A DNA stretch of 37,539 nucleotides from a virus, in IMG/VR virus record IMGVR_UViG_3300040806_000631, positions 1 to 37,539 of that record; one strand, written 5' to 3'. Below are positions 6,179 to 33,013 of the stretch, piece by piece (the stretch's first letter is position 1; each line of letters starts with the position of its first letter). Below the pieces are notes generated by a model. The model was not told the origin of the DNA, made no database searches, and saw only the letters and a program-made list of their open reading frames with translations. Both the position numbers and the translations under genes were made by a program.

Positions 6179-8494
6179 ATGAATGGGATAAATGCAATGA
6201 AAATCAATGTCACTAAACGTGACGGTTCACAACAAGAATTTGACTTAGAAAAAGTACACAAGGTACTAGAATGGGCAGTTGACGGTATTACGGGCGTTAG
6301 TATTTCCGAAATAGAGCTCAAGGCTAATATACAGTTATATAATAATATACCTGCATACGATATACATGAACTATTAATTAAGTCAGCAGCAGAATTAATT
6401 TCTGAACAAACTCCTAACTACCAATTCGTGGCAGCTAGGTTAATCAATTACAAACTGCGTAAAGAAGTTTATGGTGAATATGAACCCTGGCCTCTTGCTC
6501 AGTTAATTATAGAAAATATTTATCGTAATGTATATGACGGCGAGATTATGACAAATTATACTAGGGATGAAATTGATGAGCTAGACAAATACATTAAACA
6601 CGAACGTGATGATACCTTTACCTATACTGGTATGGAACAGTTTAGAGGTAAGTACTTAGTCCAAGACCGTAAGAACAAACTCCATTATGAAACACCCCAG
6701 ATGTTGTATATGTTAGTATCAGCTACGTTGTTTATGAACTACCCTAAAGAAACCCGATTAAAATATGTCAAGGATTATTATGATGCTATATCTCAGTTCT
6801 ATATCTCGCTCCCTACGCCGATTATGGCTGGTGTACGGACGCCGACCCGTCAGTTTTCAAGTTGGGTGCTTATCGAATCTGGTGATAGTCTTGATTCTAT
6901 TAACGCTACTGCCACTTCAATAGTAAAGTATATCAGTAAGAAGGCCGGTATCGGTATTGGTGCAGGTGCAATCAGGGCAGAGGGTGCAAAAGTAGGAGAC
7001 GGTTCCGTAGTGCACACTGGACTTATCCCATTCTTAAAATACTTTCAAGCGGCAGTTAAATCATGTTCACAAGGTGGTGTTCGTGGTGGTGCAGCGACAG
7101 TATATATTCCAGTGTGGCACTACGAATTCGAGGATCTGGTTGTTCTAAAGAATAATAAGGGAACAGAAGAGAACAGAGTCCGACACATGGACTATGCATT
7201 CCAATTTAATAAACTAATGTATGAAAGGTTACTTACAGGTGGCAATATTACATTCTTTGATCCTAATGACGTCCCTGGTTTATATGATGCATTCTTTGCA
7301 GACCAAGATAAATTCAAAGAGCTATATGAGAAGTATGAAAGAAAAACATCTATTAGGAAAAAGTCATTACCAGCAATTCAGGTATTCTCACAATTCTTAA
7401 CAGAGAGAAAGGATACGGGTAGAATATATCTAATGAATGTTGACCATGCAAATGAACATGGTGCTTTCTTGCCGGATCGAGCCCCTATTAGAATGAGTAA
7501 TCTATGTTGTGAAATTGATTTACCTACTTCTCCGTTGGATGCATCTGATGAAAATGTAGGGGAAATATCACTGTGTACTTTATCAGCAATCAACTGGGGA
7601 CTCATAAATGATCCAAAAGACTTTGAGAAATATTGTAATCTTTCTGTTAGGGCTCTTGATGAGCTTCTTGATTATCAAGGGTATCCAGTACCTGCCGCTA
7701 AGAGAGGTACTCTCAGCCGAAGACCTCTTGGAGTTGGTATTATTAACCTCGCATACTTCCTTGCCAAACGTGGCCTAAAATATGATAAGTCTGCATTCGA
7801 GGTTGTGGATGAATATGCAGAGGCGTGGAGTTACTACCTTATTAAGGCATCTGCTGACTTGGCAGAAGAAAAAGGTAAAATTCCTTTAAATAATGAGACA
7901 AAATACGGCCATGGAGTTCTTCCAATTAATACATATAAGAGTGCAATAGATAATTTAATAGGGCACAAAGAACGTATGAATTGGGACGAATTGAGAACTC
8001 AACTCAAGGCCACAGGAATTCGTAATAGTACCCTCATGGCATTAATGCCGTCAGAAACATCTGCACAGATTAGTAATAGTACAAATGGTATCGAGCCACC
8101 TAGAGCATTGGTATCATATAAACAAAGTAAGGATGGTGTTATGGCCCAAGTAGTGCCAGGGTATCATCACTTAAAGAATAAGTATGATTTACTGTGGGAT
8201 CAAAAATCTCCTGAAGGATACTTGCATATCTGTGCCATCTTACAGAAGTATATTGACCAAGGTATCTCGGTTAATACTTCATACAATCCGGAACACTTCG
8301 AGGACAATAAAATCCCTATGTCAGAAATGATAAAGGATACAGTTACTGCCTATAAGTATGGATTAAAACAACTGTATTACTTTAACACCTTTGATGGTGC
8401 TGGAGAAATGACAGACGAGACCACACATCACACATATTATGAAGGTGAGTCCGAAACATACGAAGATGATGATTGCGAGAGTTGCAAGATTTGA
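6179..8494 (+). CDS. nrdA: Class Ia ribonucleoside-diphosphate reductase, alpha subunit
   Basis: A 771-residue NrdA (start 6179; 6197 is an alternative that gives the more usual MKINVTKRDG beginning). It reduces ribonucleotides to deoxyribonucleotides with NrdB. The N-terminal ~95 residues form an ATP cone. The radical-site residues are present: Asn441, Cys443 and Glu445 in SNLCCEI, plus Cys466 in LCTLSA (E. coli Cys462). The C-terminal redox pair is a CxxC (Cys766, Cys769) rather than the CxxxxC of E. coli. The position equal to E. coli Cys225 is Trp229 (TGG at 6863-6865) in an otherwise well-matched QFSSxVLIExGDSLDSINAT block. That Cys normally pairs with Cys462, so turnover must differ or the base is an error. 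Confidence 0.95.
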   Translation: MNGINAMKINVTKRDGSQQEFDLEKVHKVLEWAVDGITGVSISEIELKANIQLYNNIPAYDIHELLIKSAAELISEQTPNYQFVAARLINYKLRKEVYGEYEPWPLAQLIIENIYRNVYDGEIMTNYTRDEIDELDKYIKHERDDTFTYTGMEQFRGKYLVQDRKNKLHYETPQMLYMLVSATLFMNYPKETRLKYVKDYYDAISQFYISLPTPIMAGVRTPTRQFSSWVLIESGDSLDSINATATSIVKYISKKAGIGIGAGAIRAEGAKVGDGSVVHTGLIPFLKYFQAAVKSCSQGGVRGGAATVYIPVWHYEFEDLVVLKNNKGTEENRVRHMDYAFQFNKLMYERLLTGGNITFFDPNDVPGLYDAFFADQDKFKELYEKYERKTSIRKKSLPAIQVFSQFLTERKDTGRIYLMNVDHANEHGAFLPDRAPIRMSNLCCEIDLPTSPLDASDENVGEISLCTLSAINWGLINDPKDFEKYCNLSVRALDELLDYQGYPVPAAKRGTLSRRPLGVGIINLAYFLAKRGLKYDKSAFEVVDEYAEAWSYYLIKASADLAEEKGKIPLNNETKYGHGVLPINTYKSAIDNLIGHKERMNWDELRTQLKATGIRNSTLMALMPSETSAQISNSTNGIEPPRALVSYKQSKDGVMAQVVPGYHHLKNKYDLLWDQKSPEGYLHICAILQKYIDQGISVNTSYNPEHFEDNKIPMSEMIKDTVTAYKYGLKQLYYFNTFDGAGEMTDETTHHTYYEGESETYEDDDCESCKI

Positions 8495-13100: not shown

Positions 13101-13676
13101 ATGAATATTTTTATACTTAACGAAGACCCAGTAATTGCAGCACAAGAACAGTGTGACAAACATGTGGTAAAAATGATTGTAGAGTCGGCACAAATGCTAT
13201 CTACTGTACACAGAATGTTAGACGGCTCGATCGAGCAACGTCCATCCAAATCAGGAAAAAGAATCTTAAAATATTACAAATTACCAGACGAAAGAGAGGA
13301 CTTGTATTACAAGGCTGTACATCACAATCATCCATGTACTGTATGGACACGCGAGTCTTGTTGTAATTATTCTTGGCACTATGAACATTTTTGTGCACTT
13401 ATGGATGAATATACATATAGGTATGGTAAGATACATTCAACGGATACTAAATTAAGAAAGGCCCTAAAACAGTTGCCAGATAATATCAATAGAACAGGTG
13501 GCAGAACTCACTTTAAATTGGCTATGGGTTCTAATCCAGAGTGTGTAGTATATGGGTTGGGTGGTACTGATCCTGTACAGTCTTACAGAAATTTCTATCA
13601 AACAAAGCAATCGAGGTTTAAAATGGATTGGACAAAACGTAAAGTGCCGGAGTGGTTTAACTATGCCGCTGTATGA
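13101..13676 (+). CDS. Conserved phage protein of unknown function
   Basis: A 191-residue protein. The opening NIFILNEDPVIAAQEQCDKH, then VVKMIVESAQMLSTVHR, is highly characteristic of a family widespread in T4-like phages, sometimes labelled pyrimidine-dimer glycosylase. I see no convincing match to T4 DenV, so I leave the function open. His and Cys residues are frequent (CDKH, HHNHPC, CCNYSWHYEHFC) and could form a metal or active site. First gene of an operon with PhoH, a nuclease and peroxiredoxin. The stop overlaps the next gene by 14 nt. Confidence 0.6.
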   Translation: MNIFILNEDPVIAAQEQCDKHVVKMIVESAQMLSTVHRMLDGSIEQRPSKSGKRILKYYKLPDEREDLYYKAVHHNHPCTVWTRESCCNYSWHYEHFCALMDEYTYRYGKIHSTDTKLRKALKQLPDNINRTGGRTHFKLAMGSNPECVVYGLGGTDPVQSYRNFYQTKQSRFKMDWTKRKVPEWFNYAAV

Positions 13677-13908
13677 TTTTGAAGATAAAGTAACGGGCGA
13701 AATCGTTACAAAAATGATTAAGATATCCGATAAGGATCAATTCTTAAAGGATAATCCTAATCTAAAACAAGTAATTTTATCTACACCATCAATTGTTGGT
13801 AGTGTAGGTGGAACACTGTCTCGTGCAGGAGACGGATGGAAAGAAGTGCAAGATAAAATTAAATCGGGTTTACCCCCACGGTTAAAGGATAATATTAGAA
13901 CAAAATGA
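13663..13908 (+). CDS. Small FmdB-like-start protein without zinc cysteines
   Basis: An 81-residue protein from ATG 13663; the frame is open further upstream but that would overlap the previous gene by more than 100 nt. It begins MPLYDFEDKVTGE, like FmdB-type zinc ribbons, but has no Cys. The C-terminal half is Gly/Lys-rich and ends in a basic segment. Similar small proteins precede phoH in marine T4-like phages as I recall. Function unknown. It overlaps the next gene by 4 nt. Confidence 0.55.
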   Translation: MPLYDFEDKVTGEIVTKMIKISDKDQFLKDNPNLKQVILSTPSIVGSVGGTLSRAGDGWKEVQDKIKSGLPPRLKDNIRTK

Positions 13909-14597
13909 GTCAAAGACCTTCACGTTTAAGAACAGAACATTTGGTTACATTAGAACCTCTCACAGAAGCACAAAGCTTTGTGTTTGAATCATGGAAAGAT
14001 GGATTTAATCTAGTCTTATCTGGTTCTGCTGGTACAGGTAAAACCTTTATTTCAATTTACTTGGCATTATTGGATGTTCTAAATAAAGAACTTCCGCAAG
14101 ATAAATTAGTCATAGTGAGATCGGCAGTACCTACACGAGATATGGGATTCTTGCCTGGAACATTAGAAGAAAAAGAAGATGCATATAAAATTCCATATAA
14201 TGCAATTCTATCCGACCTCTTTGAAGACAAAGATGCATGGAAAAAACTAGAAACTGTAAAGAACATTGAATTTTTAACTACCTCGTTTATAAGAGGAGTC
14301 ACACTTAATAATTGTATTGTTTTAATTGATGAATCACAGAATCTTAATTATCACGAATTGTGTTCGGTCATTACTCGATTGGGTAATAATACCAGAATTA
14401 TTTTATGTGGTGATTATTATCAAACAGACTTTACAAAAAATGTTGACATGTTAGGTTTGGCCAAGTTTACTGCAATTTTAGAAAATATGAAACACTTTGA
14501 ACATATTACGTTTAAATGGAAAGACATTGTCAGATCGAGCCTTGTAAGGGACTTTATAATGACAAAGGAAATGATGGAAAATGATGACTTTAAATAA
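13905..14597 (+). CDS. phoH: PhoH-like P-loop ATPase
   Basis: A 230-residue PhoH-family protein. Walker A is GSAGTGKT (residues 40-47), Walker B is VLIDESQN with Asp142-Glu143, and VRSAVPTRDMGFLPG is the typical PhoH segment after the P-loop. A C-terminal Arg-Ser-Ser-Leu-Val-Arg-Asp motif is also typical. PhoH proteins resemble SF1 helicase cores and have been linked to RNA metabolism and phosphate stress; their phage role is not settled. It overlaps the downstream nuclease gene by 17 nt. Confidence 0.9.
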   Translation: MSQRPSRLRTEHLVTLEPLTEAQSFVFESWKDGFNLVLSGSAGTGKTFISIYLALLDVLNKELPQDKLVIVRSAVPTRDMGFLPGTLEEKEDAYKIPYNAILSDLFEDKDAWKKLETVKNIEFLTTSFIRGVTLNNCIVLIDESQNLNYHELCSVITRLGNNTRIILCGDYYQTDFTKNVDMLGLAKFTAILENMKHFEHITFKWKDIVRSSLVRDFIMTKEMMENDDFK

Positions 14598-15294
14598 AGG
14601 GAATTTTATACATGAAAAAGTGGATTTGGGATATAACGACCTTTCTGCAAAGACAGGCTCTGGTGGTAGAACATACACCGCTCCTGATGGTAGTACTTAT
14701 CCTTCTATTACAACAGTTCTGTCCATATTAGGCAGAGAGGCAATCCAGGCATGGAGAGCAAGAGTAGGGGAAGAAGAGGCAAATAAAATATCAAGAATTG
14801 CCTCAACAAGGGGTACAGCAGTACACGATATGTTAGAAAAGTATGTGGATAATGATCCGAACTTTTCTGAAGGTGTACTGCCACATATTCTACAATCATT
14901 TTATGATGTAAAAAATGTACTCGATACTAATTTACAAAAAGTTTATGCACAAGAGGCTCCTCTGTATTCGGAACATTTAGGTCTGGCAGGTAGAGTGGAT
15001 TGTGTTGGGGTATGGAATGGTAAAAATTCAATTATTGATTATAAAACATCCCGTAAACCCAAAAAGAAAGAATGGATTGATGGTTACTTCATGCAGTGTG
15101 CAGCATATGCAATAATGTGGGAAGAAAGAACCGGAATGCCCATTACACAATTGGTTGTTATGATTGCTGTAGATAACGAAGACACTCAAGTCTTTATAGA
15201 ACATAGAGATAATTGGGTTGATAAATTATTTGAAGTAATTGAACAGTATAAACTCGAAAAGAAACGAGAACATATATTTGGAGAAAGGAGGTAA
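14581..15294 (+). CDS. PD-(D/E)XK exonuclease, MGME1-like
   Basis: A 237-residue nuclease. The motif series fits the RecB/MGME1 class: PSITTVLSIL with RGTAVHDMLE (His82), Glu125, GLAGRVDCVG (Asp140), and IIDYKTSRKP (Asp153, Lys155). MGME1 is a single-strand DNA exonuclease of mitochondria, and the phage protein probably trims DNA ends in replication, recombination or packaging. No helicase domain is attached. Alternative start at 14584. It follows phoH with a 17-nt overlap. Confidence 0.8.
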   Translation: MMTLNKGNFIHEKVDLGYNDLSAKTGSGGRTYTAPDGSTYPSITTVLSILGREAIQAWRARVGEEEANKISRIASTRGTAVHDMLEKYVDNDPNFSEGVLPHILQSFYDVKNVLDTNLQKVYAQEAPLYSEHLGLAGRVDCVGVWNGKNSIIDYKTSRKPKKKEWIDGYFMQCAAYAIMWEERTGMPITQLVVMIAVDNEDTQVFIEHRDNWVDKLFEVIEQYKLEKKREHIFGERR

Positions 15295-15295
15295 T

Positions 15296-15817
15296 ATGTT
15301 AAGTGTCGGAGATAAATTTCCTGCCTGTACTTTGCAGGGAGTAGATGAAAATAATGCTTTTGTCGAAGTAAAAATTGAGAATGGTTATACACCACATAAA
15401 AAAGATTGGAGTGTGGTTTATTTCTATCCAAAAGATTTTACCTTTATCTGTCCTACGGAAATTGCAGGAATGGATATGTTGGTAGAAGAAGCAAATGTTG
15501 TCGGTATTAGTGGTGATAATGAATTTTGCAAACTTGCATGGAAACAGAACAACGAATTAATCGGAAGTATTAATCACGTTCTTGCTGCAGATTGTGGATT
15601 AGGATTATCACATAAGCTAGGTATTGTCAACGAAGAAGAAGGTGTGTGCTATAGAGCAACATTTATCTATGATAGAGATATGGTGATTCAACACGTATCT
15701 GTCAATGCATTAGATACAGGTAGAAATGCACATGAAGTATTAAGAACTTTACAAGCACTTAAGGCTGGTGGTTTAACTGGCTGTGAGTGGAATCCAGGAG
15801 AGGAGTTTGTAGCATGA
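15296..15817 (+). CDS. Typical 2-Cys peroxiredoxin (AhpC/TSA family)
   Basis: A 173-residue peroxiredoxin. The start at 15296 has an excellent GGAGG at 15287-15291; the frame is open upstream but without such a site. The peroxidatic Cys52 lies in FYPKDFTFICPTEI, the conserved Arg120 in YRATFIYD, and a resolving Cys163 near the C-terminus in LTGCEWNPG. So it should detoxify peroxides with a thiol donor; the glutaredoxin encoded upstream or host thioredoxin could supply electrons. It is slightly short for AhpC (about 187) but complete. An antioxidant gene is uncommon in a T4-type phage and may protect infected cells. Confidence 0.9.
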   Translation: MLSVGDKFPACTLQGVDENNAFVEVKIENGYTPHKKDWSVVYFYPKDFTFICPTEIAGMDMLVEEANVVGISGDNEFCKLAWKQNNELIGSINHVLAADCGLGLSHKLGIVNEEEGVCYRATFIYDRDMVIQHVSVNALDTGRNAHEVLRTLQALKAGGLTGCEWNPGEEFVA

Positions 15818-22902: not shown

Positions 22903-22910
22903 TATAAATA
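22903..22910 (+). promoter_or_regulatory. T4-type late promoter at the head of the curli-like cassette, leaderless
   Basis: TATAAATA at 22903-22910, then exactly five bases and the ATG at 22916, the same spacing as at 19092. It can transcribe the three small membrane proteins and the curli-type genes that follow without a break. Confidence 0.75.
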
Positions 22911-22915
22911 GAAGT

Positions 22916-23212
22916 ATGGCCGAAATCTTTGAACTTATTGCTCAAGTTGGTGCTCCTATTGCTGGAGCACTTGCAATGGGCGTCTTTATTTTTCTAATTA
23001 TAAAACAAATATTAGAAGGGCTAGTCGGTCAGATTAGAACCCTTACAATATTCTGCGAGTCCTTAGAAAATAGAGCTAGAACTATGGCGAATGAAATGAT
23101 TAAAATTGATATGTTAGTCAGTAGTGCGCTAAAACTTAGGCCAGATATAGAAAGGGTTGCGCGCGCAGAAAACTTTGTCGAAGACGGCAAGGTTGATGTG
23201 AGGCGCGATTAA
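22916..23212 (+). CDS. Small membrane protein, holin-like layout
   Basis: A 98-residue protein. One hydrophobic segment at ~11-29 (GAPIAGALAMGVFIFLIIK), then an amphipathic helical cytoplasmic or periplasmic domain and an acidic/basic tail. The layout resembles small BhlA/UviB-like holin-type proteins, but the similarity is structural only. Its mRNA should be leaderless from the late promoter. It overlaps the next tiny gene by 1 nt. Confidence 0.5.
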   Translation: MAEIFELIAQVGAPIAGALAMGVFIFLIIKQILEGLVGQIRTLTIFCESLENRARTMANEMIKIDMLVSSALKLRPDIERVARAENFVEDGKVDVRRD

Positions 23213-23319
23213 TGGTAGATGAAATTGAAATGGTTCAATATTCATTTTCTAAAGACTTCATATTGGTATGCTCAATAGGGCTTAATATAGGGTTTTTAAT
23301 TGGGTTATTATTCATATAG
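23212..23319 (+). CDS. Tiny membrane protein (35 aa)
   Basis: Read directly: ATG 23212 (TAATG with the previous stop), TAG 23317-23319. The peptide has a short acidic start and one hydrophobic helix at ~17-35 (ILVCSIGLNIGFLIGLLFI). Its TAG overlaps the AGGAG ribosome site of the next gene. It may be a holin partner or a regulator of its neighbours; unproven. Confidence 0.45.
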   Translation: MVDEIEMVQYSFSKDFILVCSIGLNIGFLIGLLFI

Positions 23320-23328
23320 GAGTAAACA

Positions 23329-23586
23329 ATGGATCAATTGGTAAACGGTATATCTGATTATGGTTTTCCTATTGTTGCATGTGTTGGATTTGGATACTTT
23401 TTATATTATATTTGGTGTTTTATTTCGGATGTGATAGAACCTGAAATTGAAAAAATGCATATGGCATTAATTAGAGTTATTGATCAAACAAGAATGCTGG
23501 ATCAAGATTTAATAAGGTTACAGCAAAAGGTCAATGTGGTATTGGAATATAAGGAAAATGAAAAGAAAAGACAAACTGAAGAGTAA
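23329..23586 (+). CDS. Small membrane protein with coiled coil, holin-like
   Basis: An 85-residue protein. Residues ~10-33 form a transmembrane segment (YGFPIVACVGFGYFLYYIWCF) followed by a coiled coil of ~45 residues and a Lys/Glu-rich end. The YGFPI opening recalls BhlA/UviB-type holins. It is built like the protein at 22916, so the two may be related. AGGAG at 23318-23322 is a good ribosome site. It overlaps csgF by 29 nt. Confidence 0.5.
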   Translation: MDQLVNGISDYGFPIVACVGFGYFLYYIWCFISDVIEPEIEKMHMALIRVIDQTRMLDQDLIRLQQKVNVVLEYKENEKKRQTEE

Positions 23587-24076
23587 ACTAGAACTGGGTA
23601 CATTAATAGGTATATTCTTACTATCAGTAATATCTATTGTCCCAGTCAATGCTGATGAAATAAAATTTGGGTTTAAAAATCCATCTTTTTCTGGCGTAGG
23701 AACAGGAGCACATTATTTAACAATTGAGAACCAAGAGCACTCTCGTAAAAAGGCAATAGAAGATGCTTTAGAGGCAGCAAGAAAGGCCGCTGAAAGAGAG
23801 GAAAATAATTCAACACTAGCTAAATTTATTAGAAACTTAGAAAGTAGAATATATGCTCAAATGGCAAAACAAATGGTTGAATCTATGTTCAGTAATGACG
23901 GTTCAGTAAGATATGGTTCATTTACATTAGAAGGTAACGTAGTAACATACGAAGTTATAACCAATGAAGATGGATCGGAAGTTATTAGAATGACGATTGT
24001 GGATACTGATGGAACAGAAACTGTTATTGAAATTCCTGTCGGGACTGGTAATTTTGGGCAGGATCCAGATGGTTAA
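23558..24076 (+). CDS. csgF: CsgF-like curli assembly protein
   Basis: A 172-residue secreted protein; start 23558 (AAGGA just upstream; 23534 is an alternative). A signal peptide covers residues ~1-32 with cleavage after Val-Asn-Ala. The mature N-terminus has FGFKNPSFSGVGTGAHYL, matching the FxFxNPxFGG...N/G pattern that lets CsgF plug into the CsgG pore. A helical stretch with many Ala, Arg and Glu follows, then a Thr/Val-rich C-terminal segment. CsgF positions the nucleator at the cell surface in E. coli. It overlaps csgG by 8 nt, supporting joint function. Confidence 0.75.
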   Translation: MKRKDKLKSKLELGTLIGIFLLSVISIVPVNADEIKFGFKNPSFSGVGTGAHYLTIENQEHSRKKAIEDALEAARKAAEREENNSTLAKFIRNLESRIYAQMAKQMVESMFSNDGSVRYGSFTLEGNVVTYEVITNEDGSEVIRMTIVDTDGTETVIEIPVGTGNFGQDPDG

Positions 24077-25040
24077 GTACATACTCGTATTATCACTATT
24101 ATTATCTGGGTGTGCATCATTTCCAGTATGGAGTCCTAATCCACAAGATTGTAATGATTTAGATGGTAAATATGATGAGGGATTTAATAGGCATCTTCAA
24201 ATGGGTATACAAAAGGCAATGGCCAGAAAGTATATCTGTGTTGATGAACCAACTGCAGTAAGGTTACCTGCATATGTAGACTTACTAATGTTACCACCTG
24301 CAAAGGAAAGACCCGTAGTTGCAGTATATGGTTTTGCAGATAAGACAGGTCAAAGAAAATCAGTAGATAATATTGCGTCATTTTCTACTGCAGTTACCCA
24401 AGGTGGGACTGAATTGTTAATAGACGCTCTAAAAACAGCCGGAGGCGGCACATGGTTTAGAGTGGTCGAAAGGCAAGGAATTGATAATCTTGTAAGGGAA
24501 AGACAAATTGTGAGGTCTACCCGACAAGATGTAGCTAAACTCGAAGGGACTGATCCGAAAGGAGTAGGTCCATTATTATTCGCAGGAATGATAATCGAGG
24601 GTGGTATTATAGGGTATGACTCTAACATGGAAACAGGTGGTCGAGGCGCACGAACACTTGGTGTTGGGTTTACTAAAATGTATCGTAAAGATGTCGTGAC
24701 TGTATCTGTGAGAGCAGTATCAGTTTTGACAGGTGAAGTATTATTAAACGTCCAGGCTAAGAAATCGGTACTTTCTTACGGCGGTGGGGGTGACCTATTC
24801 AGGTTTATTGAACAGGGAACTCAACTTGTTGAATATGAGGACGGAGTGGGAAATAATGAATCAGTGACGTATGCAGTACGTGCAGCTATTGAGGCCGCCG
24901 TGTTGGAATTAATTTACCAGGGCCATGACCGTAAATTCTGGGATATAAACGAGGGTCATAGACATCCGCATCAAATCAATGGCGCGAATGCTAGACACTC
25001 ATTAAAAGAGGATAATAACGAAAATGAAGAAACTAATTAG
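24069..25040 (+). CDS. csgG: CsgG-like curli secretion pore lipoprotein
   Basis: A 323-residue lipoprotein. The start at 24069 gives a signal with lipobox LLSGC (Cys15). Strong CsgG matches: VAVYGFADKTGQ, ASFSTAVTQG, LIDALKT, WFRVVERQGIDNLVRERQI, IIEGGIIGYDSN with GGRGAR, VRAVSVLTGEVL, and a C-terminal WDIN. CsgG forms a nonameric outer-membrane pore for curlin export (type VIII secretion). Compared with E. coli, the eyelet Tyr51 aligns to Asp and Asn55 to Ser, while Phe56 is kept. It has an extra C-terminal His/Asn-rich tail. It is overlapped by the next gene by 17 nt. Confidence 0.85.
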   Translation: MVKYILVLSLLLSGCASFPVWSPNPQDCNDLDGKYDEGFNRHLQMGIQKAMARKYICVDEPTAVRLPAYVDLLMLPPAKERPVVAVYGFADKTGQRKSVDNIASFSTAVTQGGTELLIDALKTAGGGTWFRVVERQGIDNLVRERQIVRSTRQDVAKLEGTDPKGVGPLLFAGMIIEGGIIGYDSNMETGGRGARTLGVGFTKMYRKDVVTVSVRAVSVLTGEVLLNVQAKKSVLSYGGGGDLFRFIEQGTQLVEYEDGVGNNESVTYAVRAAIEAAVLELIYQGHDRKFWDINEGHRHPHQINGANARHSLKEDNNENEETN

Positions 25041-25761
25041 TTTAAGTTTATTATTAATGACGACATCATTCGTTTTCGCACAGGCCACTGATGATAATGA
25101 AATCATGATAGAGCAAAGTGGTGACACTTTAACCCTATATATTGATCAAGTTGGATACGGTAACAAGATCGGTTTGGATGATTTTACATCTTCTGGTTCT
25201 GATATGACTATTACAGGTTCAAGTTTAACATTTGACCTGGATATGATTGGTAATGAAAATTTAATTTTTGGACCAATTGAAATGGACTCATCAAGTTTAA
25301 CATTTACTTTAACTGGTGATTCTAATGAAGTGGATTGGAATATTGGATATGTAGGAAGTGCAGATAGTTCTAACTATAACTTTGCTATAACTGGTGATTC
25401 AAATACTTTTGATATTGATCAAGGTTATACAGTGAGTGCAGAAAGATTAGATGCAGATCTAGTATTACTTGGTACTTCTAACGTATTTGATTTGGATTTT
25501 GAGTCTGATGACGCGACATGGAATTTTGATATTACTGGAGATAGTAATAACGTTAATACATTACAAAAAGATGGAGAACATCAACTAACAGTAGAATTAA
25601 CGGGCGACAGTGCTGATATTGATATTAATCAATTATCTGGTACTTGTGCAACCGGTGCTGGAGTTGGATGTGCTACACCAAATGCAATTATTAATTTAGA
25701 TATTACTTCCGATAATGCTACAATTCAAATTAATCAGAAAGACGTTTCTAACGACAGCTAG
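25024..25761 (+). CDS. CsgA-like secreted repeat protein 1
   Basis: A 245-residue protein. A signal peptide ends around Phe-Ala at residue 19. The mature protein is Asp/Asn/Ser/Thr-rich with degenerate ~20-25-residue repeats such as IEQSGDTLTLYIDQVG, TGDSNEVDWNIG, TGDSNTFDIDQG, TGDSNNVNTLQ and TGDSADIDINQ. These recall curlin repeats (Gln-x-Gly-x-Asn-x...Gln) but are more acidic and Asp-rich than E. coli CsgA. One Cys pair lies near the end. It is the likely substrate of the CsgG pore. It shares its first ~25 mature residues with the second CsgA-like protein at 26846. Confidence 0.7.
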   Translation: MKKLISLSLLLMTTSFVFAQATDDNEIMIEQSGDTLTLYIDQVGYGNKIGLDDFTSSGSDMTITGSSLTFDLDMIGNENLIFGPIEMDSSSLTFTLTGDSNEVDWNIGYVGSADSSNYNFAITGDSNTFDIDQGYTVSAERLDADLVLLGTSNVFDLDFESDDATWNFDITGDSNNVNTLQKDGEHQLTVELTGDSADIDINQLSGTCATGAGVGCATPNAIINLDITSDNATIQINQKDVSNDS

Positions 25762-26830
25762 TCTTTTATTCATTAGTGGGGTTACTCAAGCAAGTGACCC
25801 CATAGGTGATATAGTAGAATCAACTGGAATTGGATCTATTCTGAGAAACAATGTTGAGCTACCTCATCAGACCAATACTGAAATAGTTTTAAACGACGAA
25901 GCCCGTACGGGTAATGGTCGTATGAAAATTGAGTTTTTAGATAAGGCAGAACTCTCCTTAAAAGAACACTCGGAAGTATTAATTGATGAAATATATTATG
26001 ACCCTGATCCATCATTATCAAAAATGAGCATGAAATTTACCATGGGAACTGCAAGGTTCGCATCAGGTAGATTAGGTCTTGTAAATAAAGCAAACATAGA
26101 TATTCAAACTCCAACTGCATCTATTGCGGTAAGAGGGACTGACTTTACTACAACCGTAGATGAGTTAGGTAGGTCTTTGGTTATTTTATTACCTGATGCA
26201 AATGGAGACCCTTCCGGCGAGATAGAGGTATTTAATGAAGGAGGATCTGTTACACTAAAAGAAGCATATGCAGCGACAATGGTTTCATCATTAGACCAAT
26301 CTCCAACACAGACTGTTAAGATTAATGGAATTACTCCAGCACTAATTGATAATATGTTTATTGTGTCACCCCCACCAGAAGTCGAAGATAGAATAAAAGA
26401 AGAAATGGCTGACGAGGCCGATGATGACCAAGGCCTATTGGATATTGATTTTTTAGAATTTGATGAATTAGAAAAAGACGAACTTGCAGAATCCGAAGAG
26501 AATTTAGAATTTAACGAACTTGATATTAATGAATTGGATGTTGAGTATCTAGTGGATGTTTTAGATATAGTTGATTCATCCGATCTATTTGATTCTATAG
26601 GAGAATTTGATATTAAAGGTGCAACGAGAGGCCTTAATGAAGAATCTCAGTTTAATGTATTCTTACAAGATGGCTCATTGGTTTTATATAGAAAAGTAAA
26701 CGGCACGATAAGAATAAAAATTGCTGCAGGTGGTAATTTTACACTTGATACTATTACTCCAACATGGGAAGGTGTTATAACTGGTAATGAATCCGAGGAT
26801 ATTTTAATTTACATTAATCAGCAAAATTAG
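25715..26830 (+). CDS. FecR-domain periplasmic protein
   Basis: A 371-residue protein. A signal peptide ends near Thr-Gln-Ala (residue 26). A FecR domain follows (residues ~30-175): GNGRMKIEFLDKAELSLKEHSEV, then MGTARFASGRLG, and IDIQTPTASIAVRGTDFTTTV. The middle (~225-305) is a very acidic repeat rich in Leu-Asp-Glu-Leu (DELEKDELAE), then a small C-terminal beta domain. FecR proteins transmit periplasmic signals. The start at 25715 is inside the upstream gene (47-nt overlap). In bacteria FecR genes often sit next to CHASE2-cyclase genes, as here. Confidence 0.8.
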   Translation: MLQFKLIRKTFLTTASLLFISGVTQASDPIGDIVESTGIGSILRNNVELPHQTNTEIVLNDEARTGNGRMKIEFLDKAELSLKEHSEVLIDEIYYDPDPSLSKMSMKFTMGTARFASGRLGLVNKANIDIQTPTASIAVRGTDFTTTVDELGRSLVILLPDANGDPSGEIEVFNEGGSVTLKEAYAATMVSSLDQSPTQTVKINGITPALIDNMFIVSPPPEVEDRIKEEMADEADDDQGLLDIDFLEFDELEKDELAESEENLEFNELDINELDVEYLVDVLDIVDSSDLFDSIGEFDIKGATRGLNEESQFNVFLQDGSLVLYRKVNGTIRIKIAAGGNFTLDTITPTWEGVITGNESEDILIYINQQN

Positions 26831-26832
26831 GA

Positions 26833-26840
26833 TATAAATA
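26833..26840 (+). promoter_or_regulatory. T4-type late promoter inside the curli-like cassette, leaderless
   Basis: TATAAATA at 26833-26840, five bases, then ATG at 26846. The spacing is the same as at 19092 and 22903. The ATG at 26840 overlaps the box itself and would be lost from a transcript starting at ~26846. It would give extra late expression of the second CsgA-like gene and the cyclase. Confidence 0.65.
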
Positions 26841-26845
26841 TGAAT

Positions 26846-27676
26846 ATGAAAGAGAAATTTTTTAAATATTGGATCCAGCCCTGGCATCCTAATCATATAC
26901 AATCAAATGAGGAGAGGGCATGGGAAATGTTAAAACAGGCACAAGGCCCAGGTATATGGACAGGTAAAGATTTGTTTAAGGCATTTCTTTTTGGTTTATT
27001 CTTAGGTTTATTAATGTTAAGTCCTGTTCTACTTGCAGATGATAATCAAATATCATTAGAGCAATCTGGTAATAATTTATTACTAGAAATCGAACAAGTA
27101 GGATATAATAATCAGATCGGCATGCTAGATTCTGCATCGTATATTAATAATGCACCTAACCTAGATATTCACATAGTTCAATATAATTTTACAGATAATA
27201 CTAACAAAATATTATTTGATGAGGTATCGGGTTCAAACAATACATTCAAACTAGCACAAGGTGTTGCTTGGACTGATTCAGAAGATTCATATACTTATGA
27301 TGGCGCAGAGGGCGGTGGCCACTATATGGAAATAGATTTATATGGTAGTAATAATTCTGTTAAATGGCATCAGAGTGGCGCAACAGATGGTCACAATTTT
27401 AATTTTCATCTAGCTGGTGATTGGAATGAGGTTAATGGAAGACAACAATCAAGTGGCTCAAAAGAAATGGAACTTACGATTTATAATGATGATAATTTAG
27501 TTAATATGAGACAGAAAGGTGCAAATGCAACCCATAGTGCAACAGTAACACTTGATGGAATATATGGAACGGATTTAACACTTATACAATTAGGAACAAC
27601 TACACAATCTTATTCACTATCACAGACTTGTAATACAGTAGGTGGTTGCACAGTATCAGTAACACAAGGGCAGTAA
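26846..27676 (+). CDS. CsgA-like secreted repeat protein 2 with long N-terminal extension
   Basis: A 276-residue protein. The start at 26846 is chosen because the late promoter lies five bases upstream (26840 is the next ATG). About 42 polar, Trp/Lys-rich residues (FFKYWIQPWHPNHIQ) precede the hydrophobic signal region (~44-64), which ends Val-Leu-Leu-Ala. The mature part begins ISLEQSGNNLLLEIEQVGYNNQIG, matching the first CsgA-like protein, and continues with Asn/Gln/Gly-rich repeats (GSNNSVKWHQSG, DWNEVNGRQQSS, DDNLVNMRQKG). Two Cys lie near the end. It is a probable second curlin-like substrate or nucleator. It overlaps the cyclase ATG by 1 nt. Confidence 0.7.
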   Translation: MKEKFFKYWIQPWHPNHIQSNEERAWEMLKQAQGPGIWTGKDLFKAFLFGLFLGLLMLSPVLLADDNQISLEQSGNNLLLEIEQVGYNNQIGMLDSASYINNAPNLDIHIVQYNFTDNTNKILFDEVSGSNNTFKLAQGVAWTDSEDSYTYDGAEGGGHYMEIDLYGSNNSVKWHQSGATDGHNFNFHLAGDWNEVNGRQQSSGSKEMELTIYNDDNLVNMRQKGANATHSATVTLDGIYGTDLTLIQLGTTTQSYSLSQTCNTVGGCTVSVTQGQ

Positions 27677-29514
27677 TGAAATACGTTACTTCGATATGGA
27701 CTACATTTGTAATTATTGCATTAGGTCTCTTAATAAGAATACAAGACCCAGATTTCTTACAGCAGATACGTCTCACAGTATTTGATCAATATATAAATTC
27801 TCTGCCTGTAAAACATTCCGACCAGATTGTCCTAGTAAATATCGGAGAAGAATCACTAGGAGAGTTTGGTCAATATCCATTTCCAAGACAATTATATGCT
27901 CAATTAATTTCAGATTTAAGAAGTGCCAATGCTGGTATTATAGGATTCACTATAATGTTTCCAGAGGCAGATAGATTTGGAGGTGATGAAGTATTTGCAT
28001 CTTGGGTAAAAGACAATGGAATTATACTATCACAAGATGCTGACAATAGTGGTAGAAGTACAAAGGCGCCTTATGTGGGTACTGCAACTTTTGGATCAGG
28101 AGATCCGTTGGATCATGTAATACGTTATAAAGGTCTTGTGACTAATATTTCGGAAATAGAAGAAGGTGCATGGGGCCATGGTTTAATAAACGCTATGCCA
28201 GAAGTTGATGGTGTTGTTAGAAGAATACCACTCATATCTCAAATTAATCAAGAATTATATCCATCCTTTGCATTAGAAACAATAAGAATTCTTAACGAAA
28301 AGCCTTCTTATACTGTAAAGGTTAACGATGTAGGAATTGAAGAAATTATTTTAAGGCCTTATCGACTCCAAACCGACGGGATTGGCTCGATCTGGATTAA
28401 TCCTAGATACCATTTTCAGGATATAGAATATACTTCTGATCCATTTCCTGATCTGCAAGGGAAGACCGTTTTGATCGGTCTAACGGCAAAAGGCTTGTCT
28501 TCTCAGATACCAACTTCTCAAGGATTAAAATCGGCACATCAGATTCAAGCATCTGCAATTCAGACGATAATAAATGGGGATCAGATAACCCGTCCACTGT
28601 GGGCTGATATTCTGGAGATTGGGGTTTCTCTTGTTGGGGCTCTATTGATTGTACTGGCAGTTTATTATCTACCAATTTGGAGTAGTGGTTTAACCTTCTT
28701 TGCCGTTGTTGGTTTATCATCCTACGGCGCATGGACTTCCTGGAACGAATGGGGTATACTCCTTGACCTTAGTTATTCACTAATATTATATATACTTTCC
28801 TTTACCTCATCAGCATTCAACAACTTCTATAAACAGTTTGCTCTCAGACAACAAATTAAGAAACAGTTTGAAACTTATTTGGATCCAAGACAGGTTATGT
28901 TATTACAGAAAGACCCATCTCTGTTAAAATTAGGTGGAGAAAGAAAAGACATGACCTTTCTGTTTATGGATATAGTAGGGTTTACTCCTATATCAGAGCA
29001 TTATAAAAACAATAATGACCCAGAAGGCCTAGTAAAGATTATAAATAGTTATTTGGACAGTATGACTAAGGTGATACTAAAACATGGTGGCACAATTGAT
29101 AAATACATGGGCGACTGTATTATGGCATTTTGGAATGCCCCTTTACCCTGTAAGAATCATGCTGAATGTGCAGTAGAAGCCGCAAAGGAAATATTAGAAA
29201 CTGCTGATGAACTCATTAAACAACTTGAAGAACAAGGCCTTCCTCGTATTGATGTTGGCATTGGTGTCAACACCGGCACATGCATTGTTGGAAACATGGG
29301 ATCAGACTCTCGATTTGACTATTCCGTCATTGGAGATGCCGTCAACCTCGGTGCTCGACTCGAAGGACAAACTCGTAATTATGATGGGGTACGACTGTTG
29401 TTGGGACCCGAAACTTATAGAGGCTGTCCGAATGGAGCATTCTCTGAAGTCGATAGAATACTCGTTAAGGGTAAAACAGAGAAGGTACGAATATACACCC
29501 CAATCGTGGATTAA
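27676..29514 (+). CDS. Membrane adenylate cyclase with CHASE2 sensor
   Basis: A 612-residue class III cyclase. An N-terminal transmembrane helix (~7-21), a periplasmic CHASE2 domain (~25-300), three closely spaced transmembrane helices (~315-385), a linker and a catalytic domain (~420-610). Metal-binding Asp residues are in FMDIVGFT and MGDCIMAFWN. The adenine-selecting Lys is in DKYMGD, and the conserved Asp, Asn and Arg are in FDYSVIGDAVNL and ARLE. All point to active cAMP synthesis. The last 308 nt overlap another ORF, and codon use in that part changes from AGA/TTA to CGN/CTC. CHASE2 plus FecR in one operon suggests periplasmic signal sensing. Confidence 0.9.
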   Translation: MKYVTSIWTTFVIIALGLLIRIQDPDFLQQIRLTVFDQYINSLPVKHSDQIVLVNIGEESLGEFGQYPFPRQLYAQLISDLRSANAGIIGFTIMFPEADRFGGDEVFASWVKDNGIILSQDADNSGRSTKAPYVGTATFGSGDPLDHVIRYKGLVTNISEIEEGAWGHGLINAMPEVDGVVRRIPLISQINQELYPSFALETIRILNEKPSYTVKVNDVGIEEIILRPYRLQTDGIGSIWINPRYHFQDIEYTSDPFPDLQGKTVLIGLTAKGLSSQIPTSQGLKSAHQIQASAIQTIINGDQITRPLWADILEIGVSLVGALLIVLAVYYLPIWSSGLTFFAVVGLSSYGAWTSWNEWGILLDLSYSLILYILSFTSSAFNNFYKQFALRQQIKKQFETYLDPRQVMLLQKDPSLLKLGGERKDMTFLFMDIVGFTPISEHYKNNNDPEGLVKIINSYLDSMTKVILKHGGTIDKYMGDCIMAFWNAPLPCKNHAECAVEAAKEILETADELIKQLEEQGLPRIDVGIGVNTGTCIVGNMGSDSRFDYSVIGDAVNLGARLEGQTRNYDGVRLLLGPETYRGCPNGAFSEVDRILVKGKTEKVRIYTPIVD

Positions 29515-29818
29515 CGAACCAGTAAATCCATACGTATACTATGGATTTTGGGTTCTACATATAGCAGATGTTTGGACAACAAATAGAGGAATGGATTATG
29601 ATTGTGTCTTTGAAGCAAATCCTCTCTTACCTAAAGTCCCTCACATAAACAGATTACTATTACATAAGGCAGTCTTTTTATCACCTTTCAGTACTTTGTA
29701 TTCAGAAAAAGTTATAACCAATGGTGAGATGATTTTTCCTATATTAATGACAGGATATGTTATCGATAATAATTTGAGAGTAATAGACCGCGCGTCAACC
29801 AAATGTAATAAAAGGTAA
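29207..29818 (+). CDS. Secreted or membrane protein overlapping the cyclase gene
   Basis: A 203-residue product from ATG 29207; a shorter form from 29432 (128 residues) is possible. The N-terminus looks like a signal peptide with a basic start (KNK), a Leu/Val/Ala core and Thr-Pro-Ala-His-Ala at residue 26. The part beyond 29514 contains NPYVYYGFWVLHIADVWTTNRG, CVFEANPLLPK and LLLHKAVF, a layout I recall from membrane proteins of marine phages and bacteria. The first 308 nt lie in the cyclase gene in another frame. A change in cyclase codon use exactly there supports dual coding. Function unknown. Confidence 0.6.
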   Translation: MNSLNNLKNKAFLVLMLALVSTPAHALLETWDQTLDLTIPSLEMPSTSVLDSKDKLVIMMGYDCCWDPKLIEAVRMEHSLKSIEYSLRVKQRRYEYTPQSWINEPVNPYVYYGFWVLHIADVWTTNRGMDYDCVFEANPLLPKVPHINRLLLHKAVFLSPFSTLYSEKVITNGEMIFPILMTGYVIDNNLRVIDRASTKCNKR

Positions 29819-31752: not shown

Positions 31753-31967
31753 TGGCAGAATTTTCACGAGCACCTTATATTTCTTGGTCAATTATTCTTC
31801 CAGCATTAAAAACAGATGCAGAATCAAACCAAGGAATTATGGAAGGAGTAAGTAATCCTATTGAAGTTGCACCACCCCGTGGGTATATCACTAATCACAA
31901 GCATGAAATTATTTGCAGTGATATGACTGGCAACAAGTATAAAATCACGGTACAAGATATTACATGA
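31752..31967 (+). CDS. Hypothetical small protein
   Basis: A 71-residue protein from ATG 31752 (TAATG; GGAGG at 31740-31744). Predicted small beta-type domain (RGYITNHKHEIICSDMTGNKYKITV). No recognised family. It overlaps the glycosyltransferase gene by 4 nt. Confidence 0.5.
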   Translation: MAEFSRAPYISWSIILPALKTDAESNQGIMEGVSNPIEVAPPRGYITNHKHEIICSDMTGNKYKITVQDIT

Positions 31968-33013
31968 AGATACTAATGCCATATAAAGCCGATCGAGGAT
32001 TTGATATCGGAAGTGATATGGTTACCGGTGGTATCGAGAAATTCATATCGGATGTGAACACCAACTTTGATGTAATACCCGTACGTTTACCTTTAGGTCA
32101 TTCTAAATTTAATGGAAAGAACCGTAAACAAATTATGGCAGAAGCAGTTGCCCAATATAATCCAGACATCATATTTTTAAACAGCATTGAATTAACTGGT
32201 GGTATGGTCAGACATGGTATTCCAATTGTTGCAATATTTCACATAGGTATAGAGAAGGGCATTACACTTCTTAGCAGTTTACCAGCACTTCAAAAGTTAA
32301 CCAATGAAGGACACCACATATATTTTGTAAGTGAACATCAGCATGATTTCTGGAAATCTAACTCGGAAAGATTAAAGACACCCTTTGAAATTAAAGGATA
32401 TATTAACCCATCTTACGTTTCTGTAACAGACAATATATCAAATATTGAGTATGATGTAGGTACGATTGGACGATGTTCAACGTGGAAAAGGCCGTTTTTA
32501 TTACATACCAAGAGTATGGATAACCTTTCTAGTTTAGTGATATCTACTGCCCCTAACGAATCTAGCATGCAAAAGGAACTAGATTATTATCAGAATAACC
32601 TTAATTGGTCACCACCCCAAACAACAATGTGGGACTTACCCCACACCCAAGTAATAAAAGAAATAAGTAAGGCATCTGTTTATTGCTCTACCTGCCCCGA
32701 TGAATCGTACGGTATCACGTCGCTAGAGGCGTTATCTCAAGGATTACCTATTATACTATTATGTGATAAAAGCATGAATCATGCGAGCGAATGCATTCCA
32801 GCTAGTACTACGCATTATGTGAAGTTATCAAATAAGTGTAGTCCAGAAGAATTTAAGAGTGCCGTAGAATCATTACAAGTGCTGGATCGAGCAGAGATTG
32901 CACAAATGACTAGGGAAAAACATTCATTGGAGAATTGGAAAAAGTCAATTCAAACCATATTTGAGAATAGGTTATCAGATAAAAATATGCATAATTTAAT
33001 GAACTTTTTTTAA
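31964..33013 (+). CDS. GT-B glycosyltransferase (GT4-like)
   Basis: A 349-residue glycosyltransferase. The start MKILMPYKADRGFDIGSDMVTGG and a Gly-rich turn fit the N-terminal Rossmann half. The C-terminal half has the GT4 signature E-x7-E (Glu247 and Glu255, in PDESYGITSLEALSQGLP) that binds the sugar nucleotide. It resembles T4 alpha-glucosyltransferase in general type. Whether it modifies phage DNA or a host surface sugar cannot be told: no hydroxymethylcytosine gene is in the window. No signal peptide, so it acts in the cytoplasm. Confidence 0.8.
   Translation: MKILMPYKADRGFDIGSDMVTGGIEKFISDVNTNFDVIPVRLPLGHSKFNGKNRKQIMAEAVAQYNPDIIFLNSIELTGGMVRHGIPIVAIFHIGIEKGITLLSSLPALQKLTNEGHHIYFVSEHQHDFWKSNSERLKTPFEIKGYINPSYVSVTDNISNIEYDVGTIGRCSTWKRPFLLHTKSMDNLSSLVISTAPNESSMQKELDYYQNNLNWSPPQTTMWDLPHTQVIKEISKASVYCSTCPDESYGITSLEALSQGLPIILLCDKSMNHASECIPASTTHYVKLSNKCSPEEFKSAVESLQVLDRAEIAQMTREKHSLENWKKSIQTIFENRLSDKNMHNLMNFF

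Follow-up and report, generated by a model that had tools for sequence, protein, structure and literature searches.

The 37.5-kb linear stretch of DNA analysed here (hereafter the window), which is the whole of an IMG/VR contig from a T4-like phage, carries a further member of the type VIII secretion system (T8SS) module published for pelagiphages, and profile and fold matches support reading it as a T8SS-like cassette of the curli type, combined with a sensor/cyclase. On balance we favour, by a modest degree of confidence, an explanation in which this pelagiphage-type module is a late operon read from a single promoter at 22903, placing fibres on the infected cell and including a FecR-CHASE2 sensor that would make cAMP. 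The cassette comprises eight same-strand genes (22916-29514), preceded by a predicted promoter:

22903..22910, + strand: predicted T4-type late promoter box TATAAATA, 13 nt 5' of the TM1 ATG, at a conserved position
22916..23212, + strand: TM1, small single-pass membrane protein of 98 aa (phrog_18771)
23329..23586, + strand: TM2, TM1 paralogue of 85 aa (phrog_18771; its N-terminus weakly matches holin phrog_4898)
23558..24076, + strand: csgF (PF10614, E 4.5e-16)
24069..25040, + strand: csgG, lipoprotein subunit of the outer-membrane pore, lipobox LSGC (PF03783, 1.4e-50; solved E. coli CsgG, 2e-44)
25024..25761, + strand: csgA1, exported curlin-like subunit (PF07012, 8.3e-4; NCBIfam CsgA, 1.2e-4; paired-strand model)
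25715..26830, + strand: FecR-domain protein with an apparent signal peptide and without an anti-sigma part (PF04773, 3e-9; PupR signalling-domain fold match, 4.2e-5)
26840..27676, + strand: csgA2, second curlin-like subunit and the fastest evolving (PF07012, 0.09; family relatives)
27676..29514, + strand: CHASE2-domain class III nucleotide cyclase (PF05226, 9.7e-39; PF00211, 3.8e-18; catalytic residues)

Gene content and conservation

An earlier note on this DNA had proposed the set and order csgF-csgG-csgA-fecR-csgA-cyclase, which Pfam matches and open reading frame positions confirm, with the matches to CsgG, CsgF, FecR and the CHASE2 cyclase supporting a curli-type system that comes with a sensor/cyclase. 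It had overlooked the two paralogous one-TM genes, which always belong to the cassette. Wherever a locus covers the cassette, among 80 related IMG/VR loci and the phages HTVC008M and Melnitz, the gene order is invariant, and in a few of the related loci one gene is split between frames. The cassette genes have dN/dS values of 0.03-0.27, indicating purifying selection, with csgA2 changing fastest. Many marine phages retain the cassette as one block, and the purifying selection on it is strong.

The contig encodes a T4-like gene set (NrdA, NrdB, DNA ligase, PhoH, a gp59-type helicase loader and a gp32-type SSB). Its SSB matches those of HTVC008M, Melnitz and cyanophages at 56-58%, a near-equal closeness that does not point to any one host for the contig. 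Beyond the cassette, an open frame at 29207-29818 overlaps the 3' end of the cyclase gene and runs past it, with a weak DUF5658 match and relatives in 30 loci; further downstream, 31964-33013 holds a glycosyltransferase-like gene (PF00534, 6.7e-6, just below cut-off).

The pore and its putative substrates

The earlier note had named profile searches as the check on the two pore proteins, and both CsgG and CsgF matched at values that place them in type VIII secretion. The lipobox of CsgG is kept in its relatives; this motif and the signal peptides were read by eye from the sequence. The same note's statement that no CsgE is seen also holds, as searches of 14 phage records, including two complete genomes, gave no match to this gate above the cut-off; its absence counts against an explanation in which fibres are exported. 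Separately, a CsgG-like protein is also encoded by OR851715.1, a record of 1.5 kb that bears the name of a Salmonella phage but may be host DNA.

The description of two proteins as CsgA-like stands in part. The PF07012 match of csgA1 falls just below the curated cut-off, and its structural model consists of paired strands (pLDDT 76, pTM 0.72), with turn motifs recurring every 22-35 residues, most often at 22 or 26. A fold search with csgA1 returned weak beta-helix matches, none of them significant, which we count against the fibre explanation, and a PDB sequence-profile search with the csgA1 family gave nothing significant. The PF07012 match of csgA2 is weaker still, and its assignment comes via family relatives; curlin matches do exceed the cut-off in the relatives from HTVC008M (L002) and Melnitz (L003). 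The second curlin-like protein of HTVC008M (L002:10453-11778) has a PA14 domain (PF07691, 2.7e-6) followed by curlin repeats, a hint that it may form an adhesive fibre. Melnitz encodes two curlin-repeat proteins (L003:10716-13510 and 13526-15577); neither csgA nor csgB was reported for this phage (PMC9004378).

The FecR-domain protein and the membrane protein pair

The FecR-domain protein is laid out as an apparent signal peptide, a PupR-like periplasmic signalling domain, an acidic linker and a C-terminal strand region. Its alignment revealed no cytoplasmic anti-sigma part preceding a membrane helix, the apparent signal peptide being followed by the signalling domain. The protein thus resembles a signalling domain made for export and not an anti-sigma regulator, and the FecI/FecR route of iron regulation finds no support.

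TM1 and TM2 are small paralogues, always found 5' of csgF, each with a single C-terminal membrane helix, and they look to be a phage-specific part of the cassette. Proteins at this position have been published as histidine kinases, a label we reject, since TM-pair proteins gave no match to a kinase domain, showed no kinase features and have no conserved phospho-acceptor histidine (43 of the 50 first-copy, TM1-type proteins contain no histidine at all). Neither 'histidine kinase' nor 'iron regulator' is kept as a reading, which disposes of two doubtful leads. A PDB sequence-profile search with the TM-pair family found nothing significant; weak local matches to the holin family phrog_4898 occur in 7 of 25 members (best E 2.6e-4), that of TM2 in the window being confined to residues 1-21.

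The cyclase and the question of a cAMP receptor

All six residues of the class III catalytic set are present in the window cyclase, namely two metal-binding Asp, the Lys/Asp substrate pair and the transition-state Asn and Arg. They are retained together in 42 of 43 cyclase sequences (42 or 43 of 43 at each site), and the cyclase of Melnitz has lost two of the six. A receptor for the product is harder to find. The cNMP-binding domain PF00027 had no match in seven long phage records or the window, and is present in 11 of 197 genomes from one family, that of a MAG with the title Candidatus Pelagibacter; many of these genomes may be incomplete. Class III cyclases occur in 3 of these 197 genomes, one hit being a phage-like contig (L095) within that MAG. 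The lack of PF00027 matches in these phages and the scarcity of the domain in Pelagibacter-family genomes count against an explanation based on cAMP signalling. If the contig's host is of that kind, a cyclase that is complete by its residues in hosts mostly without cNMP-binding domains presents a testable puzzle. One bolder version of events, which we regard as a long shot, is that the cassette is a late, self-contained surface-fibre organ made from a leaderless mRNA and bringing along both an envelope sensor and a source of cAMP, while the cell itself has no cAMP receptor of the CRP type; cAMP might then act through an unrecognised target, for example in timing lysis or fibre export.

A conserved predicted late promoter

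The earlier note had placed the cassette under late control on the strength of TATAAATA, which is present at both 22903 and 26833. All nine copies of this box in the window lie on the coding strand, and their number is not above chance (7.3 expected), so we used positional conservation instead. Of 51 distinct loci, 31 have the box no more than 60 nt from the TM1 ATG and 23 have it at -13/-14, against a background at that spacing of 4 in 778 distinct ORF starts from the same loci. Seven other AT-rich 8-mers used as controls gave 0-4 sites at -13/-14, compared with 29 for TATAAATA. The box at 22903 precedes TM1, and not csgF directly. In HTVC008M, whose record has an annotated late sigma factor, the box is found at equal spacing 5' of csgF, a baseplate wedge gene and a DNA end protector gene, and at greater distance upstream of the tail sheath and portal genes. 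These data support the box at 22903 as a predicted, conserved T4-type late promoter. Such a promoter would tie the cassette to virion assembly and lysis rather than to early host takeover, leaving fewer possible functions.

In T4 the late box lies at about -13 to -6 relative to the transcription start. Applied to the 13-nt spacing seen here, this rule predicts a start at the A of the TM1 ATG, i.e. a leaderless mRNA. Seven related phage records (886 kb) contain 33 copies of TATAAATA-N5-ATG and none of its reversed-pattern control; elsewhere the pattern occurs once in T4, twice in P-SSM4 and not in Syn9. Sites include 22903 in the window, positions 6267, 7549, 18929, 31119 and 49747 of HTVC008M (KC465899.1) and others in five long IMG/VR contigs, suggesting that leaderless late mRNAs may be common in pelagimyophage-type genomes. 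In most loci without a TM1 box, TM1 directly adjoins p82, the gene before it, behind a lysozyme gene, and those cassettes may be transcribed from upstream.

The second proposed promoter fared differently. Of 44 loci, one has the box at 26833. Its last letter is the A of the csgA2 ATG (26840), meaning that it would start transcription downstream of that ATG. The N-terminal extension of csgA2 is common to a related locus (L066), which backs the start at 26840 and speaks against a transcription start inside csgA2. We have rejected this box as a late promoter and consider it most likely to be a chance occurrence; late control of the cassette as first claimed is supported by the box at 22903 and not by that at 26833.

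Related loci in bacterial genomes

The FecR and cyclase genes have been stated to lie outside bacterial T8SS operons (PMC9599517). They do, however, occur with csg genes at two loci in Caulobacteraceae MAGs (L090 and L091), ordered csgF-csgG-csgA-csgA-fecR-cyclase without the TM pair, and are thus not confined to phages. The neighbours in L090 are glycosyltransferase and S9-peptidase-like genes, and the operon there has a GC content of about 53%, compared with 36% in the window. Both loci fall inside the phage-like group of the CsgG tree with moderate support, a placement that does not distinguish donor from recipient between phages and Caulobacteraceae. Further csg loci from Caulobacteraceae (L198-L207) gave no match to fecR or to the cyclase. 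The phage form of the cassette, TM pair included, also lies on contigs placed in bacterial MAGs from several phyla (L084-L089, L092-L095 and L097); these contigs probably come from phages and were binned together with the MAGs.

Proposed function and alternatives

In the explanation we favour, a gp55-type late sigma system would start transcription on or next to the TM1 ATG, giving a putative leaderless message that runs from TM1 to the cyclase gene through TM2, csgF, csgG, csgA1, fecR and csgA2. CsgG and CsgF would form an outer-membrane export pore, and the two curlin-like subunits would pass through Sec and then this pore, presumably assembling as fibres at the surface of the infected cell ahead of lysis. 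A sensor pair for secretion or the state of the envelope may be formed by the FecR-domain protein, once exported, and the CHASE2 domain in the periplasm, with the cyclase making cAMP inside the cell. Late transcription is favoured by the box and spacing shared with HTVC008M csgF and its baseplate wedge and DNA end protector genes, and the FecR-CHASE2 pairing by the two Caulobacteraceae MAG loci and by gene clusters in Campylobacterota (PMC9239204). As to the roles put forward in the earlier note (cell aggregation, a changed surface of the infected cell, or release with virions), the single experimental hint published is a negative one: cultures infected with Melnitz showed no clumping (PMC9004378), which we count against fibres.

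The Melnitz authors instead proposed a pinholin-like pore, and the pore could be a device for lysis or permeability, pinholin-like or a gated channel, with the TM pair as holin-like partners and lysozyme encoded upstream. The lysozyme gene found upstream in many loci, the weak holin matches of the TM pair and the missing CsgE gate all fit with this, but an outer-membrane pore alone does not depolarise the inner membrane, the HTVC008M lysozyme gene is not adjacent, and no cassette, that of Melnitz included, is without the curlin-like subunits, which are also under selection; we consider such a device unlikely. Use of the curlin-like proteins on or with virions, as decoration or as shed adhesive fibres, would be in line with a promoter type common to virion genes and with the PA14 domain in HTVC008M. 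It appears improbable given that the subunits bear export signals and are accompanied by a dedicated outer-membrane pore, neither of which virion parts need. Least probable, by a little, is a channel for the uptake of nutrients or cofactors with the FecR-domain protein as part of its control, as put forward in PMC7029224 and PMC9599517: an ungated pore would suit uptake, but two conserved curlin subunits are left unexplained, and a FecR protein lacking the anti-sigma part does not support control of the FecI/FecR kind.

Comparison with known systems

Curli-type genes in SAR11 myophages, which the earlier note had mentioned, are documented more fully than it supposed. The csgF and csgG genes were described in pelagimyophages in 2020, with 'sibling capture' proposed (PMC7029224), and in 2022 came phage Melnitz (PMC9004378) and the whole module, FecR and adenylate cyclase included, in pelagiphages of two families (PMC9599517). 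E. coli curli (csgBAC, csgDEFG) have in common with the window the CsgG pore, CsgF and exported curlin-repeat subunits. They differ in having CsgE, for which no match was found here, as well as CsgD and CsgC, which were not seen, and in lacking the FecR-domain protein and cyclase; the gene order also differs, as the earlier note had said. In Campylobacterota, FecR-domain envelope proteins are encoded beside CHASE2 adenylate cyclases, as in the window, although those clusters are described with phosphodiesterase and TPR genes and not csg (PMC9239204).

The HTVC008M and Melnitz cassettes consist of the same eight genes, their CsgG proteins being 51% and 46% identical, respectively, to that of the window over the matched part. 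In HTVC008M the box precedes csgF and not TM1, and the second subunit has gained a PA14 domain relative to the window; Melnitz differs in its cyclase, which has lost two catalytic residues. The published module shares the order of the window, with one or two small genes followed by csgF-csgG-csgA/B-fecR-csgA/B-adenylate cyclase, and is likewise without CsgE. Its small genes were called histidine kinases, which they are not here, and no late promoter was described in those papers; to that module our analysis adds the conserved predicted late promoter at 22903 and corrected identities for several of the proteins.
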